Origin: Spinellus fusiger
Taxonomy: Eukaryota > Mucoromycota > Mucoromycetes > Mucorales > Phycomycetaceae
Assembly: GCA_025094145.1 (NCBI GenBank)
Contig: JALLLS010000007.1
Span: forward strand, 620,001 to 684,000
DNA length: 64,000 bases
Direction: 5' to 3'
Shown: positions 2,255-35,247 of the stretch, one piece after another
Position numbering within the stretch: the stretch's first letter is position 1
Layout: each line of letters opens with the position of its first letter
Notes under the pieces: generated by a model
The model's database searches: none
Seen by the model: only the letters and a program-made list of their open reading frames with translations
Told to the model about the DNA's origin: nothing
Program-made: the position numbers and the translations under genes

Positions 2255-5200
2255 TTAAGTAAGATCAACTTCATCAGTAAATATAGAAACAAGAGAGTGT
2301 GCAGTACGGGTGACAGAAGCAGAGACAAAAGGTACCCCATCAAATACACACCTCCAATAGGCTCTCCAACACGCCAACAGACAAGAGCTGACTACTTGGC
2401 AGGATTCAATGGATATTCCGCTAGATACGGCAGGAAACTTAAACTCATAAATAGCAGCCGTTATATCTGACAATTGAAGCTCACATCCAAAACATGACTG
2501 CCACATCTCCTGCCAAACAGAGAGTTTGTTGGGGCATAAGAACAAGAAGTGGGCTGGATGGTCTTCTGAAGTCAGACAAATAGAACACACAGTATCTGGA
2601 AACAGTACTGGAACAATCTGATGAAGAACAAGACGACAGGACAGTTTACTATGCAATGCACAATACCAGATAGAGCGAGAAGAGTGGTGAATAGGAGATG
2701 CCCAAAAAGAAATCCAGCGGCTGTGAGTCCAAACAGGGCGGAAAGGAAGAACTGGTAATCTAGCAGACAGTATACGACGAAACTGTTGAGAGGTTAATTT
2801 ATACAATTCATATTTAGGCAGAAGGACTATTGCATCACGATACACTCTAAGATCGGGTGGTTCAAATGGTGGCTCAAGTGGGTGTGAGGGGGTCGGAAAA
2901 CAGTGTCGAACAAAGAACAGTTTGAAAAGGATCTTATGCTGAGAATGCGCCTTGAAGAATGAGGCACAAAGATTAGGACTTTTTAGGTTCTCTTGATGTA
3001 ATCGACGGCGAAGATAACCCTGTGAAGTGTCATAGGTAAAGAAATCTTTTACTAAAGACTTGGAGAATCCTGACCTGGGAGTAAAACCAGCCTGACGTTC
3101 TTGCCATATCTCACTCAATGGCAGCTCCAAACATGTGGGGAGAGACGGTAAGCACCTGGAAAAGTCTCGCGGTAAAAGGTCCACGGCACGAAAAAGGAGT
3201 GAGAGTGTGCTTGGAGGAAGACATAATTGATCAGGACGGCAGGTAGGAAAGAGCAGAGGAAGAAGAGGATCCATAACCTTACATCGAGAACGAAGGGCAT
3301 GTTGCAGTGGCTGTAAGATAATGGACTCAGCATACTGGTTGGGAAAGAAAAGGGGTAAAAGCCAACGAAGTTGCAAAACAGATTGCTTCTTCAATGGATC
3401 CAAAAGACCAAGACCACCTTGACCTTTCTTGAGCTGCATGTATGTCTGACTAATAGGAGGGAGCATCTTCTGCATCATGTACCCTCGACCCAAAGACCGT
3501 AATTTTTGTAGAACCTTCTTGGGAACAGAAGCAAAGCGAAGCACATACCAGACCTTTGACATGATCAAAGTATTGAGTACAGTTGCCCTACCAAGCAGAG
3601 AGAGTTGTCTCTGGCTGTGGATGTTGCAAGCTGTCTCCTTTGACAATCATTTGGTCAGTAAAAACACGGCGTTGTGCCTGAGATGTACACAAAGGAAATC
3701 CCAAATAAGTGACTGGAGCTGCAGAACGTCGATCGTGCCATGCAGTAATATTATGAGAGGCTAGGACAGAAGACCAAAGAGGTAAAGGTACGCCAGAGAG
3801 TGACAATGCCTGTGTCTTTCTAAGGTTGACACGAGCATTGAAAGCAAAAGAATATATAGCAAGAAGGTCAAGTAAACGAGGCAGATCCGACTGATCCTGC
3901 ATAAACACCAAATCATCATCAGCATAAGCCAAAATCTTGACAGGCTCAGGTGCCGTGGATTCAGATGAAAAAGAAGATGGGCTCCAGCGATATCCAATAA
4001 ATTGTGGATCGTGCACAATTGATCTTAGTAATGGCTCAAAAGCAAGGTTAAACAGTATAGGTGATATAGGATCTCCCTGTCGTAGTCCACGACCTTGATG
4101 TACTGTGGGAGAGAGATGACCATTTACATTGATGCGGATCTTAGTCTGAAAGAACAGATGATCAACGCACCGAACAAAGCTATCTGGAAATCCAAAATGC
4201 ACAAGAACACAAGAGAGATACACAGGATGCACACGATCGTATGCTTTTTCCTGATCAAGAAGAAGGCCAATTCCAGGATTGTCAAATGTATAAGCATCTT
4301 CTATAATCAAGCTAGTAAGCAGACCATTATCAGCAATAAAACAATCATGCATGAAGCCTGTCTGGTTTCTAGTGATCAGTGGTCGAGTTATTGGAATGAT
4401 TCGAGCATTCAAAAGTCTAGTAGATGTCTTGGCATCTATGTTAATAAGTGAAATAGGGCGCCAGTTGGCCAAGTTAGCAAGATCACCCTTCTTAGGAAGC
4501 AGGGACACACAAGTGTGCTGCCAACTGTCAGGGAATATCCCAGTGAGAACATCCGAGTAGACTCGGACAAGTAGATCCTGGTATTCACAATGGTGAAACA
4601 CTAATGCTAGAATCTCATAAGGTATTCTATCTGGCCCTGGACTGCTTCCAGAAGGCACACGACGAATTTCCTGAAGAAGTTCTTCAAGCACAAAAGAACT
4701 AGAGATATAGCTTGCATCTTCAGCAGAAATACAACACTCCTCTGGGATGGCTGACAATAACTGATCAATTGAAGCTTCCTCTATGGGCTCTGGTGTGTAT
4801 AGCTGTTGATAGAAGGCCTGAGCTGCTGAGGTCATTGTAGTGGGTGAGTCACACAGTTCTGAAGTATCAGGGTGGATGAGTGGTGGCATCATTTTACGTG
4901 CCTGGCGATGCTCTATTGTTCTTTTCAAATATCCGGCAGATATTTCTCCATTCTCTCTCTAATGGTGACCAGCTTTGAGAGCCACAATGGTAGCTGTCTC
5001 TTGTTGCATAGCACCAATCTTCTGTTCCACAGGAAGAAGTCGGTCAGGAAGAAGAGTAGGAGCAGGGGACAAAGTAGTAATGATATGTGAGCGCTTCTTT
5101 TAGAGGGCCTCGAGGTGTCCAACACACCATGCTGCACGTTATCTACCATACTTCTTGGTGATCCTCACAATCATCCTCTTGGTGGCATCCCATTGTTCTT

Positions 5201-25081: not shown

Positions 25082-25372
25082 TATTGAGGGAGGAGGTTGT
25101 TAATCCATCCAGTAGACCTCGCTCCATCTTTCTTGCCCTCCTTCCTCCCTTGTTTTTATAGATACATATAGATACATATAGATACAGATACATATATAAA
25201 TATAAATATAAAAGATCTTATTTCATTTGTGGAAACAAGATTGAAGTGATAACAAAATAAAATAGAGAGAGAGAGCAAGGGGGGGGAATAAAGTAGAAAA
25301 TAGAAAATAATAATAATATAAAAGAAAGAAAGAAAAAAAAGTATATAGAAAAAGAATAATAATACAAAAAGC
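25082..25372. terminator. Convergent 3' region of the WD40 gene and EF2
   Basis: AT-rich, with (GATACATA)n-like repeats at 25160-25210 and AATAAA motifs on both strands (for example near 25254-25260). No coding sequence. It probably carries both polyadenylation sites. Confidence 0.4.
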
Positions 25373-28135
25373 TTAGAGCTTGTCGTAGTACTTGTCAAGA
25401 CCGGGGATGTCTTCAACAAGACCCTTTCTCTTACGAACAGCACGAATAATGTCATACACCTTGTTACCGGCCTCCAATGGGTTGCCAGTCATGTTCTGCC
25501 AGTGATCAAACACAGCCTGGGGGAAGGCCTGACCAGCAGTGGCAGCACGCAAATCAGCAGTGAAGCCAAAGGATTCGTTGACAGGCAAGTAGGCCTTGAC
25601 AGTCATCATGGGAGTACCAGGGCGGGTTTCCTCAGAGAAGACGACACCACGACGTCTGTTGAGACAGCTGTAAATACCACCAATCACAGAGTCAGGGCAC
25701 TGGATCTCCACCAAGTAGACGGGCTCCTGGATACCGGGAGTGGCAGTCAGCACAGAGGCGTACACGACACGACGACAGGTAGGAATGATCTGTCCACCAC
25801 CTCTGTGGATGGCATCAGCGTGCAACACAACATCGAGAATGTTGAAACGACAACCACGCATGTTCTCCTCAGCCACAGGTCCTTCCTTGGTAGCCCACTG
25901 GAAGGCAGCTACACAGGAGTCCTTGATTTCGTTCAAGTACTGGACAGCCTTGGTGACATCCACCATCAAGTTGGGGCCGGTACCGTCGGGACCGAAACAC
26001 CAGATCTTACGGGCCTCGGTGACATCCCACTCGAAGCGATCAGCCAAAGCACGGGCACGGATCTTGAAATCATCCTTGGGACCAATTTTGCCAGCATCAA
26101 TCTCGTTGGCAAGGTCGTCGTTCAAGGGGGCAGCACGCATGAAAATACGGTTGTGCTTGTTGGGGGACTTGGACAAGCAGTCCATGGTGGACTCGGCAGT
26201 GACAGTCTCGCGGTACTGCACAACGGGATCACCGTACTTCAAGGGAACCTGGGCGTGGTCTTCTTCAAGATCCTTCAAGCAAATCTCCAGATGGAGCTCA
26301 CCAGCACCAGCGACAATGTGTTCACCAGAGTCAGAGGTGAAGGTAAGGACACAGGGGTCGGACTTGGAGAGACGCTTCAAACCTTCGACCAACTTGGGGA
26401 GATCGTTGGCGTTCTTGACATCAACAGCCACCTGCACGACGGGGGAAACAGAGAACTTCATGATCTTCATGTTGTGGGCGACATCGGAGGTGGTGATGGT
26501 ACCACTCTTGACCAAGAACTGATCGACACCGACAAGACCAATGATGTTACCAGCAGGGCAGTCATCGATCGCCTCAACGTTACGTCCCATCATCAATACA
26601 GTGCGCTGGATGGACTTGACGGACAAATCACTCTTGGATCCAGGAGTGTAGTTGGGGCCTTGGATTCTGACCTTGAGACCAGCACGGACAGTACCAGAGA
26701 AGACACGACCGAAAGCATAGAAACGACCCTTGTCGGAAGTAGGCACCATCTTGGACACGTACAACATAAGAGGACCAGCAGGGTTGCAGTCTCTGATACC
26801 AATGGCACACTCGTCATCCATAGGACCTTCGTACAAGCTGGTCACACGGTATCTCTGGGCAGTGACGGGAGAGGGCAAGTGGATACAGATCATCTCCAAG
26901 AGAGCATCACCAGCAGGCAAGAACTTGCGCATGACGACCTTCAACAGCTGCTTTCCTTCCAACTCACGCTCCTCGCTCTTCAAGTTGATTTCCAACTTCT
27001 CCAAGAGAGTGGTGACCTGGTCCTTCTTGAAGTTCATGACAGAGTCAAAGATCTTGAAGATGGGGTCCAAGATGAACATGTTGAAGGCACGCTCAAGGGG
27101 AGCACCACTGGCATCAGTGCCTTTGGTGGTCCACTTCTTGGTCTTGGGGTTGAAGTAGTTCTCACCCCACAGCTTGCCCATCATCTTCTCCTTGTCTACA
27201 CCGAACTTCTTGGCATAACGGACAGCAAACTGACGGAGAGTGAAGCCCCAGCCGTGGAGACCAGAGGCAAAGGCAACAGTACCGCGCTCAGGGTAGACCT
27301 GAACATCACCCAAGACTTCATCCAAGTAGGTGGAGATGATGACGTTGACGGATTCAATGGTACGAGCAAAGGTCTATTGTCATCTATTTTGTTGAGTTGA
27401 TCTGCCCTACACACCCCTACACACACATCGAGAGGTATCTATCAATAGAACTTACGTTGTACAACTCTTCCTTGCCCAACTGTAACTCCAACAAGGCACG
27501 ATCCACCTTGTTAATGACAATCACAGGTTTAATGCGCTCAGTCAAGGCCTGGCGCAACACAGTCTCAGTCTGCACACACACACCATCAATGCAGTCCACA
27601 ACAACAAGAGCACCGTCAGTCACACGGAGAGCAGCAGTCACTTCAGAGGAAAAGTCAACGTGACCAGGAGAATCGATCAAGTTGATCAAGAAGGAAGAAC
27701 CGTCTGTCTTTTGGTTCTTGATTTCGTTAATGTCATCGGGGTTTTCCATTTGGAAGTACATGGAAATGGCAGTGGACTTGATGGTAATACCACGCTCCTG
27801 TTCATCCTTGCGGGTGTCCATGAAACGGGTCTCACCAGCACGACCAGCAGAAATAATACCGGCCTTGGACACGAGGGAATCGGTCAAGGTGGATTTACCG
27901 TGATCGACGTGAGCAATCACAGACATGTTACGCACATTGGTGACCTTGTCCATAAGACCACGGATCTCCTCAATAGTAAAGTTCTAAGAATGAAGAGTGA
28001 CATGAGCTTCCTTTCTTTTTCTTTTTTTTTTCTTTTTTCTCTGTTGACATGGAGTCGTTTCTTCATTGGTCTCTAATAACCTACCACTAAAATACATTAG
28101 ATGATGTTATTCCATCATGTAGTATGCTTACCCAT
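25373..28135 (-). CDS. EFT1: Translation elongation factor 2
   Basis: Exons 28135-28132, 28086-28085, 27983-27456 and 27373-25373 join to 844 residues (yeast eEF2 has 842). The GTPase domain shows AHVDHGKST (P-loop), DEQERGITI (switch I), DSPGHVDF (G3) and NKVDR (G4). Domain IV carries [12 protein letters not shown], which contains the His converted to diphthamide. eEF2 moves tRNAs and mRNA through the ribosome using GTP. The coding strand has the biased codons of a highly expressed gene, which also leaves a 632-codon antisense frame open. The odd part is the start: MV before NFTIEE needs ATGG, then TG alone between two introns of 45 and 101 nt. The symbol follows yeast usage. Confidence 0.96.
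28085..28086 (-). other. Putative 2-nt microexon in EF2
   Basis: Upstream is ATGG|GTAAGC (intron 28131-28087, 45 nt, ending TTTTAG). Downstream is GTAGGT (intron 28084-27984, ending TTCTTAG). The two bases TG between them complete the second codon (GTG, Val), giving the conserved MVNFT start of fungal EF2. No single-intron model gives an ATG in frame: direct read-through hits stops, and skipping TG shifts the frame. Confidence 0.6.
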
Positions 28136-31230: not shown

Positions 31231-34200
31231 ATGGCATCCCATGAAGCTATTAGGCAGCTGATGGACCTAGTAAGGCAGTCTGTTATAAAGTGTAGACTAC
31301 TGATATAAGCAGGGTATCAGCCAAGAACAAGCACGGGAGGCATTAGCAGTAAGCGAATGAGACTGTCCATGATAATGTTGGCTAATAGGAGACAGCGCTA
31401 TAACAATGATGTAGCGCATGCTGCTGATTATATCTTCTCTGGGGCTGTAGACACAAGCAATGAACAGGTGGTGAGAGGAAGAAGAGAGAAAGAGGAAGAG
31501 GAAGAAGACATGATGTGACCTTAAACTAGGCCAATTCCCCCAGTAATATTACTACTGCTACTGCTACTACTGCTACTACCACCACTACTGCAGCTGCTGT
31601 TTGGGATGATACTTCAGTATGGCCTCCTTGGTCTACTATGGAGATGGATACACAGTCTGTTGATTCTACACGAGGCAGTGCTGGATCAACTCAAGGTAGA
31701 TCTATTCAAATTCCAGTGTATATGTAGAGTGTATATGTATATGTAGATGTATATGTATATGTAGATGTAGATGTAGATGGATAGATAGCAACAGAGCAAT
31801 GGCACTGAATTCAATGACTCTATTAGGTGGAGAGCCATTAGAACAGGAACAGACTGAAGATACAGGGAGAGAGCAGCAACAGCACCTACAACAACAGCAG
31901 GAGTGGAGTGTTGTGCCTTTTAGACCTTATTCTTCTACTTCTGGTGTAGAGAAAAGAGGACGCAATGGAATAGCATGGGAAGAACCTTCTGATCCAAGAG
32001 ACAGAGCAGCTGTGGAGAATAGGCAAGGAGTGTTAATACACTGGCAATGAAAATGAAGGAAGTGGCTAATAGACACTCTAAGCAGACCTATTGGATTGCG
32101 TCCTCCCAAGCACAAGATGCCTTTTACCCCTGCCGTCTTCCAAGCACTCTTTCATCTTCCTTGTCTTCAACAGTCTGTTATGTCTTTTCATCCAAAGAAA
32201 TTTCTGTGGGGATCTCCTCAAGACTATTGGCAAGGCCGTGGAGAAAAGACATCACTCTACAGTCTAGGGAGTCTACCTGCTTCTGAACAACAGGAGATGG
32301 GAAGGAGTAGATTAGAAGCAAAAGAAATGCAAGATCCATGGTGCACAAAAATGAATGAAGAAGAATCAGACAAGGCATCAGAAAAAGATGGGACAGAGGG
32401 ATTTGAGCTCCTCTCACTTTCTCAATCATTACCAGAAGTACCAGAAGTATCCACAGTAAATATGGATATGAATGAAAATTACAGCATGGATCTAGAACCA
32501 ATACCAAGATGCCTGCAAGGTATTCTTCCTTCTGTTGGGGATAAAAGGCACAGAAAAGAAAAGAAAAAACTCACTACAGAATAAACACTATAGCATTTGC
32601 AGAGATACAAAAGCTATTTGCATTTCTCCTCTGCTCACAAAGAGGCTATGGAAATGTCACTCATGTTGTGGATGCTCTGACTCAACATTTAGATACTGAA
32701 GAATGGAATTCTGCTGACAATCATTTGGACAGTAAGGCATTCTCATTCTCCCAATGATATAGGCTACTCTACTCTACTCTATTCTTCTAATAGGGTGTAT
32801 CTATACCGTATGATAGGCTTTGTGGATTTGATCATCAATTGTCTTATAGACACAGACCAATATACCACACAACCTATGAAAAGATTTCAAGAGTAAGTAA
32901 TAATGAATGCACTTTATCTACTTCTTACTGTGAATTAGTCTATTCTCAATCAAAGTCATGGTGGATTATGGTGAAGAAATAGAGACAGAAGAGATCAACT
33001 GCCTTATATCCTTTATTACTATTACTACTATTACTATTCACATGAATGCATAATCTACCTAAATGCATGTCCTTGACTCTTTGATCCAACATTCTAGGCA
33101 TAGACCAAAATGCATGCAACTTCTACGAGTGCCTTGATCCTTTTGTTTTTCAAAGAGAAGAGCCAGGAGACGACAGAAGCTTCAGTAGTGACAAGACAGA
33201 AACCCCACACCAAAAGATCACTACATTCAACCACATCCCACCTGTCCTTTACATTGCCCTTGAGAATAGAATGGAATCCAGTAGAGAACCAGAAGACCGC
33301 TACTCTTCTCTTTACCGGATAGATCCTGTGATCTATCTCGACAGATACCTTACTGAGAACAAACATGAAGTGCTTTCTGCCTACCAACAATCAGACCAAT
33401 GGAGAAAAGAAATGAACCAACTTCAGCAGCAACAGAGAGAGTTAAAGGAGATCGTGGTGGGGGAGACAGTGTATGAGACACAACTACTACTAGATCATAC
33501 CCTAAAGTACCTTGAAACTATATCTGAGCAGAGTGAAGCATGTCTCACTACAAAGACAGTGCTTCAAACTACCCGTGAATCCATGGAGCAACAGATCCAG
33601 GGTAGGCGTCATAAACATAGTAGGATACTAGACTACGTGGTCTTATTGAGCTTTTTTTTATCCGATAGCATTGCAAGAGAAAGAACAAATAACACACCAA
33701 CAATGTTCTCGATTCTTGGAATCGTCAGAGATGCAAAAGGCAGGGTATACGCTTCATGCTACTCTCCATAGGAATGAACATAGAGATGTGGATGAGACAT
33801 GGGCCTATGTTCTAGTGACTACAGAAGATACTACAGAAGATACTTCAGGAAACACAGCAGGAAACACGGCAGGAAACACTTTCTATCCTTCTGAACCCAC
33901 GTCATGCTGGTTCCGTTTCTGTGATACTTTAGTTGAACCAGTAACACTAGACACGGTTCTAAATGAATCTTGTAGGCCGCATGCTCTATTTTATGTGGCA
34001 CAGACATGTCCTACATTTAGCAAAAGGGAATGTCTGGCTGCCATGCCGAAGGATCTCAAGGCAAGTTCATGAAAAGGAAAAGAAAGAAAAAAAGAAAGGA
34101 ATATTAAATGTGGATTCTATTAGGACTTTATTCATAAAGACAATATCATTTTCAAAGAAGAACTGGAGACGACCACTTCATGGTACAAGACAGGCCATGG

Positions 34201-35247
34201 GCCAATGACCAGTACTTTGAGTGAAGATGGATTTTCTTCCATGGAGGCCTCTGTAGATACAGCTGTGGGGCTCACAGGCCATTGTCAGTCTTCTCTTAAT
34301 GCCAAGATGGAATTAGACATGATAGAAGAACATATCAATGCTATTGTGAGAGAAGCCAAAGAGGCACCCATGAGTCTTCTTCTGAACAAGTACAGTGACA
34401 TTATAAGGGTGTATTGGATCTAATTCTATGTATGTTATATAGTGTAGGTATTTTTTTGGCTCATATTGGGAACATGGCTCTGTTACGACATTTGGTTAGT
34501 TTTCATTGGAAAATGTCCAGTGTAAGTCTACTTTCTTATTATTATATGACCTGTACTAAGTGTGGAAGAGGGTGGTGGTGGCTATAGTTACCTTTCAATG
34601 AAAAACAAGCACGTCAGGATGTGTCATTGCAGTGGATCTTTTCTGAATACGATGCCTTTGTAACGATTGCTCAATGGGTCATCGTTGCCTTTTCATGGTG
34701 TGGTAAAGACAACACTAAGGCCCTCAAGGCATTTGTCCGGGCAAAAATACTCGAAGAAAATTGGAAAACTCATTTACTCATGGACGTGGAGAGTATGGAT
34801 TTCCCTCATCTCGAATCTTTGGGATTTAATCCTATAGTGAGGCAGTTTGGAAAAGCCCTTTTATTGGAACTGAACAAGGCAGCTTATAAGAAAGCAAGTG
34901 AGGATAGGGATAGAACAAAAGCAATGAAAGAAGCATTATGGATTGCCTCTCAAGCTCATAAGATAATGAGACCCTCTAAAGTGTCAGAAGAAGAGACTTG
35001 CAATGCTCTTGTTGAAGTCTGGTATGGATTATTTTCAAGCCAAAGTACGGTGCTGCTCCCTGATCAACAAGAAATCCTTAATGATGTGATTACAACGTAC
35101 TTGGATGGACAGGCAGGCTCAGATTTTGAAACATCTGAGGAGTCAATGGAACAAGCGGGTGGTGGGGAAAACAATAAGATGTCTTTAGGAGAAATGTATG
35201 ACGAAGGGTACAAAATAGCCACTTTTTTATTGAATATTAAGCTTTAA
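31231..35247 (+). CDS. USP25/28-like protein with UBA domain, catalytically dead deubiquitinase
   Basis: Fourteen exons join to about 1050 residues (31231-31269, 31313-31348, 31396-31467, 31530-31695, 31797-32022, 32086-32519, 32603-32731, 32817-32892, 32939-33005, 33091-33601, 33669-34060, 34124-34394, 34448-34521, 34588-35247). A UBA-like domain (MASHEAIRQLMDLGISQEQA, ending AADYIFSG) is followed by a USP fold: PIGLRPPKHKMPFTPAVFQA, EIQKLFAFLLCSQRGYG, HIPPVLYIALENR, DPVIYLDRYL, a long coiled-coil insert, then DETWAYVLV and CWFRFCDTLVEPVTLDTVL. In active USP25/28 the first block holds NTCW and the last GHYWAY; here the Cys and His are both gone. It probably binds ubiquitin without cleaving it. 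Two introns are GC-AG and one is U12-type AT-AC. The exon 12-13 junction is uncertain. Confidence 0.78.
33006..33090 (+). other. U12-type AT-AC spliceosomal intron
   Basis: The donor is ATATCCTTT, the exact U12 consensus. The segment TCCTTGACT at 33070-33078 matches the U12 branch-site consensus (TCCTTAACT class). The acceptor AC is at 33089-33090, 14 nt beyond the branch A, within the normal U12 range. The exons join phase 0 to phase 0 (EEINCL then ILGIDQNACNFYEC) with no stop. There is no GT donor between the last conserved codons and the in-frame TAA inside the intron, and using the nearby AG shifts the frame. Confidence 0.85.

Follow-up and report, generated by a model that had tools for sequence, protein, structure and literature searches.

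A very probable U12-type AT-AC intron in the mould Spinellus fusiger, located in a USP25/28-like gene, and candidates for the minor spliceosome that would remove it

Spinellus fusiger belongs to the Phycomycetaceae (Mucorales), as does Phycomyces. For two related moulds, Rhizopus oryzae and Phycomyces blakesleeanus, U12-type introns have been in print since 2010; the part of that report drawn on here (PMC2846911) describes the RTATCCTT donor, the AT-AC subtype and U12 snRNAs, in all of which the Spinellus case resembles them, and gives EST-based numbers of 8-9 AT-AC and 8-12 GT-AG introns for Phycomyces. The first-pass annotation of the DNA presented below had pointed to the rarity of such introns in fungi; in the light of these two moulds, the surprise is smaller than it implied. 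Rhizophagus irregularis likewise represents a fungal minor spliceosome, and part of PMC10639083 assigns to it all four snRNAs, for which Spinellus also has genes or candidates. It has 205 minor introns, compared with at least 10 with coding support among 19 strict pattern matches in Spinellus. Minor snRNAs are also present, as here, in Lichtheimia corymbifera and Apophysomyces, although U4atac went undetected in the former and both U4atac and U12 in the latter, according to the sections of PMC4133162 and PMC5604411 that deal with them. The Spinellus intron is a new example of a class already published from Rhizopus, Phycomyces and Rhizophagus. We regard it as very probable that positions 33006-33090 constitute a U12-type AT-AC intron of a USP25/28-like gene, which is removed by a minor spliceosome encoded in the same genome. 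In the literature searched, no paper contained both "Spinellus fusiger" and "intron"; no wider absence is claimed.

The window, i.e. the whole stretch of 64,000 nucleotides that was analysed (contig JALLLS010000007.1, positions 620,001 to 684,000), carries the USP25/28-like gene on its plus strand (31231-35247), where it is represented by two public models. P0002 starts at 31231, reads through a donor and terminates with a stop at 32584; P0001 begins with an internal Met at 33271 and extends to a stop at 35247. The interval 32585-33270 is outside both models, which omit the intron and the three exons preceding it. Two of these exons (32603-32731 and 32817-32892), absent from the public models, are predicted from frame and homology; the third (32939-33005, 67 nt) ends with EEINCL, and the exon downstream of the intron (33091-33601) starts with ILGIDQ. 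When a 547-aa model was assembled from the window, two public Spinellus fusiger proteins aligned to it, one with 100% identity over 44% of its length and the other with 99% over 27%. Elsewhere in the window, we noted a weak match to a Tc3-type transposase (1120-1608; 30.1 bits, cut-off 31.5), a minus-strand frame that clearly encodes a reverse transcriptase (3591-4958), and an open frame of 683 aa antisense to an EF-G/EF-2-like gene (25349-27400).

The elements that the first-pass annotation had ascribed to an 85-nt AT-AC intron were all found. The 5' splice site ATATCCTTT (33006-33014), for which pairing with U6atac and U11 is predicted, conforms to the U12 donor rule RTATCCTT. The branch site TCCTTGAC (33070-33077), with predicted pairing to U12, lies within TCCTTGACT (33070-33078). 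The consensus of U12 branch sites is TTCCTTRAY, and GTCCTTGAC agrees with it at 8 of 9 positions, the first base being G, not T. With the branch A placed at 33076 by analogy, the AC acceptor (33089-33090) follows at a distance of 14 nt; in U12-type introns this distance is short, about 10-15 nt. The intron is in phase 0 and contains a TAA in the unspliced frame. It is the sole match in the window, on both strands, of a strict and of a loose U12 pattern; in 150 first-order Markov resamplings of the window, the strict pattern had 0 matches and the loose one 0.15 per window.

The protein sequence is continuous over the junction in 10 of 14 Mucorales orthologs, 9 of them gap-free in this segment; the Gilbertella ortholog crosses the junction with two extra residues upstream. 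The remaining public models lack residues precisely here: 5 in R. microsporus, 43 in R. arrhizus, 36 in R. delemar and 23 in Phycomyces. As a gene caller that does not admit AT-AC introns could yield such missing residues, these four models (P0003, P0004, P0005, P0015) are probably mis-spliced at this site, and we infer from the missing residues that the three Rhizopus species and Phycomyces share the intron. A profile search with the whole alignment gave no new relatives; the four matches listed had all been seen previously.

The strongest competing explanation is that a U2-type intron is used, for example GC-AG 33001-33097 or GT-AG 32971-33097, both of which keep the frame, and that the U12 motifs are due to chance or are a relic. 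The statement of the first-pass annotation that no GT-AG alternative preserves the frame did not hold: a scan of splice pairs (donors 32945-33084, acceptors up to 33129) yielded 4 open in-frame GT-AG pairs, deleting 14-30 residues, besides 3 GC-AG, 40 AT-AC, 22 AT-AA, 16 AT-AG and 8 GT-AC pairs. Twelve valid isoforms were scored, covering 5 of the 40 in-frame AT-AC pairs, all 4 GT-AG and 2 of the 3 GC-AG pairs. The product of AT-AC 33006-33090 ranked first with 181.2 bits against a profile that was built from the 10 junction-crossing orthologs, the 4 non-crossing ones being left out, and is thus biased toward the AT-AC reading. Another AT-AC pair (33015-33090), which has no U12 donor, reached 173.5 bits and was only 8 bits behind. 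The two GC-AG products scored 166.3 and 162.6 bits, being 4 and 6 residues shorter; the better one, from 33001-33097, was only 15 bits behind. The four GT-AG products, 14-30 residues shorter, scored 128.0-144.0 bits. The U2-type alternative also gains from the R. microsporus model, which lacks 5 residues at the junction, and from a GC-AG intron (AAG/GCAAGT, 34061-34123) that, read by eye, is apparently used elsewhere in the gene, in P0001. Nevertheless, we consider it highly improbable: GCCTTATAT is a poor GC-AG donor, the residues that would be lost occur in 10 of the 14 orthologs, and in none of the 150 resampled windows did donor, branch and acceptor come together by chance.

Judged by its sequence, the gene had been labelled correctly as USP25/28-like, with E-values of 4e-8 for USP28 and 5e-4 for USP25 in the PDB set; a Pfam search of the 547-aa model did not find a UCH match. 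The family is marked by a catalytic Cys and a catalytic His, and the Spinellus gene has neither. The position of the Cys was located through an alignment to USP28 that is weak (0.4 bits); there the residue is absent in all 15 aligned rows, and the segment of Phycomyces contains a Cys at another position. The His of GHYWAY is replaced in Spinellus alone among the 14 rows holding this segment. By these residues, the gene looks like a pseudo-deubiquitinase (32057-34072; columns 241-262 and 901-915 of the alignment). The public name of P0003 is still cysteine proteinase. That the gene is a decaying pseudogene in which nothing is properly spliced, as the two catalytic positions and the annotation in two pieces might suggest, is likewise highly improbable: the 547-aa model contains no internal stops, the absence of the Cys from every row makes its loss old and shared, and the annotation in two pieces agrees with an AT-AC intron that was never modelled.

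Removal of 33006-33090 as a U12-type intron presupposes the corresponding snRNAs, whose retention had been predicted along with the intron. The genome (38.08 Mb, 197 contigs) was searched with the cut-offs of Rfam, and the prediction was supported: U11 (71.8 bits, cut-off 39) and U6atac (66.2 bits, cut-off 33) are encoded with scores above the cut-off, U12 (44.8 bits, cut-off 53) and U4atac (31.2 bits, E 0.025, cut-off 53) as candidates below it. In their 5' parts, U11, U12 and U6atac fit their models closely, and the branch-reading segment of the U12 candidate is intact. A U12 with reduced 3' stems has been described for basal fungi in parts of PMC4133162 and PMC5604411, and such a reduction may be the reason for the low U12 score in Spinellus. 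Duplexes of the snRNAs with the donor and the branch of the intron are predicted; the one with U12 bulges the G before the branch A. U4atac was not found in the genome at a threshold of E 0.001, and at the loose threshold revealing it 11 of 14 prokaryote control genomes matched as well; the score alone is therefore weak. The U4atac candidate can form 18 contiguous base pairs plus a further 6 with the genome's own U6atac, at the positions of stems II and I, respectively. The 18-bp duplex was reached in 0 of 1000 mononucleotide shuffles, where the longest run was 14; the 6-bp match is uninformative alone, other chance runs being longer, and the total duplex energy was equalled by 35 of 1000 shuffles.

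Two minor-spliceosome proteins were searched, namely U11/U12-25K and 59K. The 25K protein is encoded in two adjoining pieces, both above the cut-off of 22.8 bits (40.7 and 26.6); after the pieces were roughly joined, the score was 77.1 bits. The 59K protein, which the first-pass annotation had named for this check, was borderline: with 22.2 and 25.3 bits, it stayed below its cut-off of 27. In the established order of steps in minor splicing, the donor of intron 33006-33090 would be read by U11 and then by U6atac, the latter delivered by U4atac; U12 would read the branch site, and the intron would be released at the AC located 14 nt after the branch. What the sequence shows are the splice elements, the snRNA genes or candidates, the frame and the fit to the orthologs; that the transcript is spliced at 33006-33090 and that the snRNAs are expressed is our inference.

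In the whole genome, a strict pattern with A first (ATATCCTTTN{38,68}TYCTTRAY) had 19 matches and its reversed counterpart 3, whereas the matched strict pattern with G first had 3 matches and its reversed control 18. A loose pattern (TATCCTTN{40,70}TCCTTRAC) was not enriched (22 versus 19 reversed matches); the base preceding TATCCTT in the 22 loose matches was A in 16 cases, T in 6, and never G or C. A matched relaxed pair of patterns also showed no enrichment over control (GT: 1, control 14; AT: 8, control 6). Three of the eight relaxed AT matches, identical copies with the donor ATATCCTTGGG, were set aside. As the reversed controls span 3-19 over five runs, raw counts are weak evidence, and we relied on homology across the junction. 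In 11 of the 19 strict AT matches, an AC follows the branch A at a distance of 9-16 nt. Besides 33006-33090, nine coding-looking AT matches were chosen by eye from the 19 and submitted to Pfam together with one GT match; at each locus, the one splice taken was that whose acceptor and phase gave the longest open frames. The nine loci, candidate AT-AC introns in conserved genes, correspond to DNA-PKcs, a Foie-gras-domain protein, ChAPs, an RNB-domain protein, a TBC1D20-like protein, an Alg9-like mannosyltransferase, Npa1, VPS11 and an inositol polyphosphate kinase. Pfam matches were obtained at 8 of the 9, that of Foie-gras_1 below its cut-off; for the ninth, a search of the PDB set yielded TBC1D20 (E 1.3e-4). 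Homology spans the junction at 8 of the 9 loci; at the inositol polyphosphate kinase locus, it begins just after the junction, which is thus untouched by the match. The ChAPs locus is unusual in its acceptor, since the AC follows the branch A at a distance of 24 nt. The GT match submitted, L046 (G000:C24:352464-352530, minus strand), is the one of the three that looks plausible as a GT-AG U12-type intron; it lies a few codons downstream of an ATG, and the Pfam search gave no match for it.

Phycomyces mixes AT-AC and GT-AG introns according to the ESTs in part of PMC2846911, whereas the strict pattern search in Spinellus returned AT-AC introns almost alone. For 10 or more of 11, the comparison with Phycomyces gives P values of 0.01 or 0.0007 (Fisher: 0.05 or 0.008), which are a lead only, as a hand-picked pattern search is pitted against EST counts. 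The skew may be real, or weaker GT-AG sites and introns of other lengths may escape the strict pattern. In human, A-type introns are favoured by CENATAC (PMC8280824), whose partner is TXNL4B. A strong AT-AC excess, 77%, is also given for Blastocystis in part of PMC10639083; that organism differs in being a stramenopile, and its minor introns are very short and number in the hundreds. We tentatively put forward, as a possibility with somewhat less than even chances, that Spinellus retains its minor spliceosome nearly exclusively for AT-AC introns. Minor introns of the GT-AG type would have been turned into major-type introns or lost, while AT-AC introns, for which no single easy step leads to such a conversion, would hold the whole machinery in place.

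With Spinellus, a genome containing candidates for all four minor snRNAs is added to the fungi having them. The gene studied here illustrates the likely cost of ignoring AT-AC introns: Spinellus has a broken public model of it, and the models in Rhizopus and Phycomyces are probably damaged. Should the AT-AC skew prove true, Spinellus would be a natural system in which to ask why minor spliceosomes are retained.
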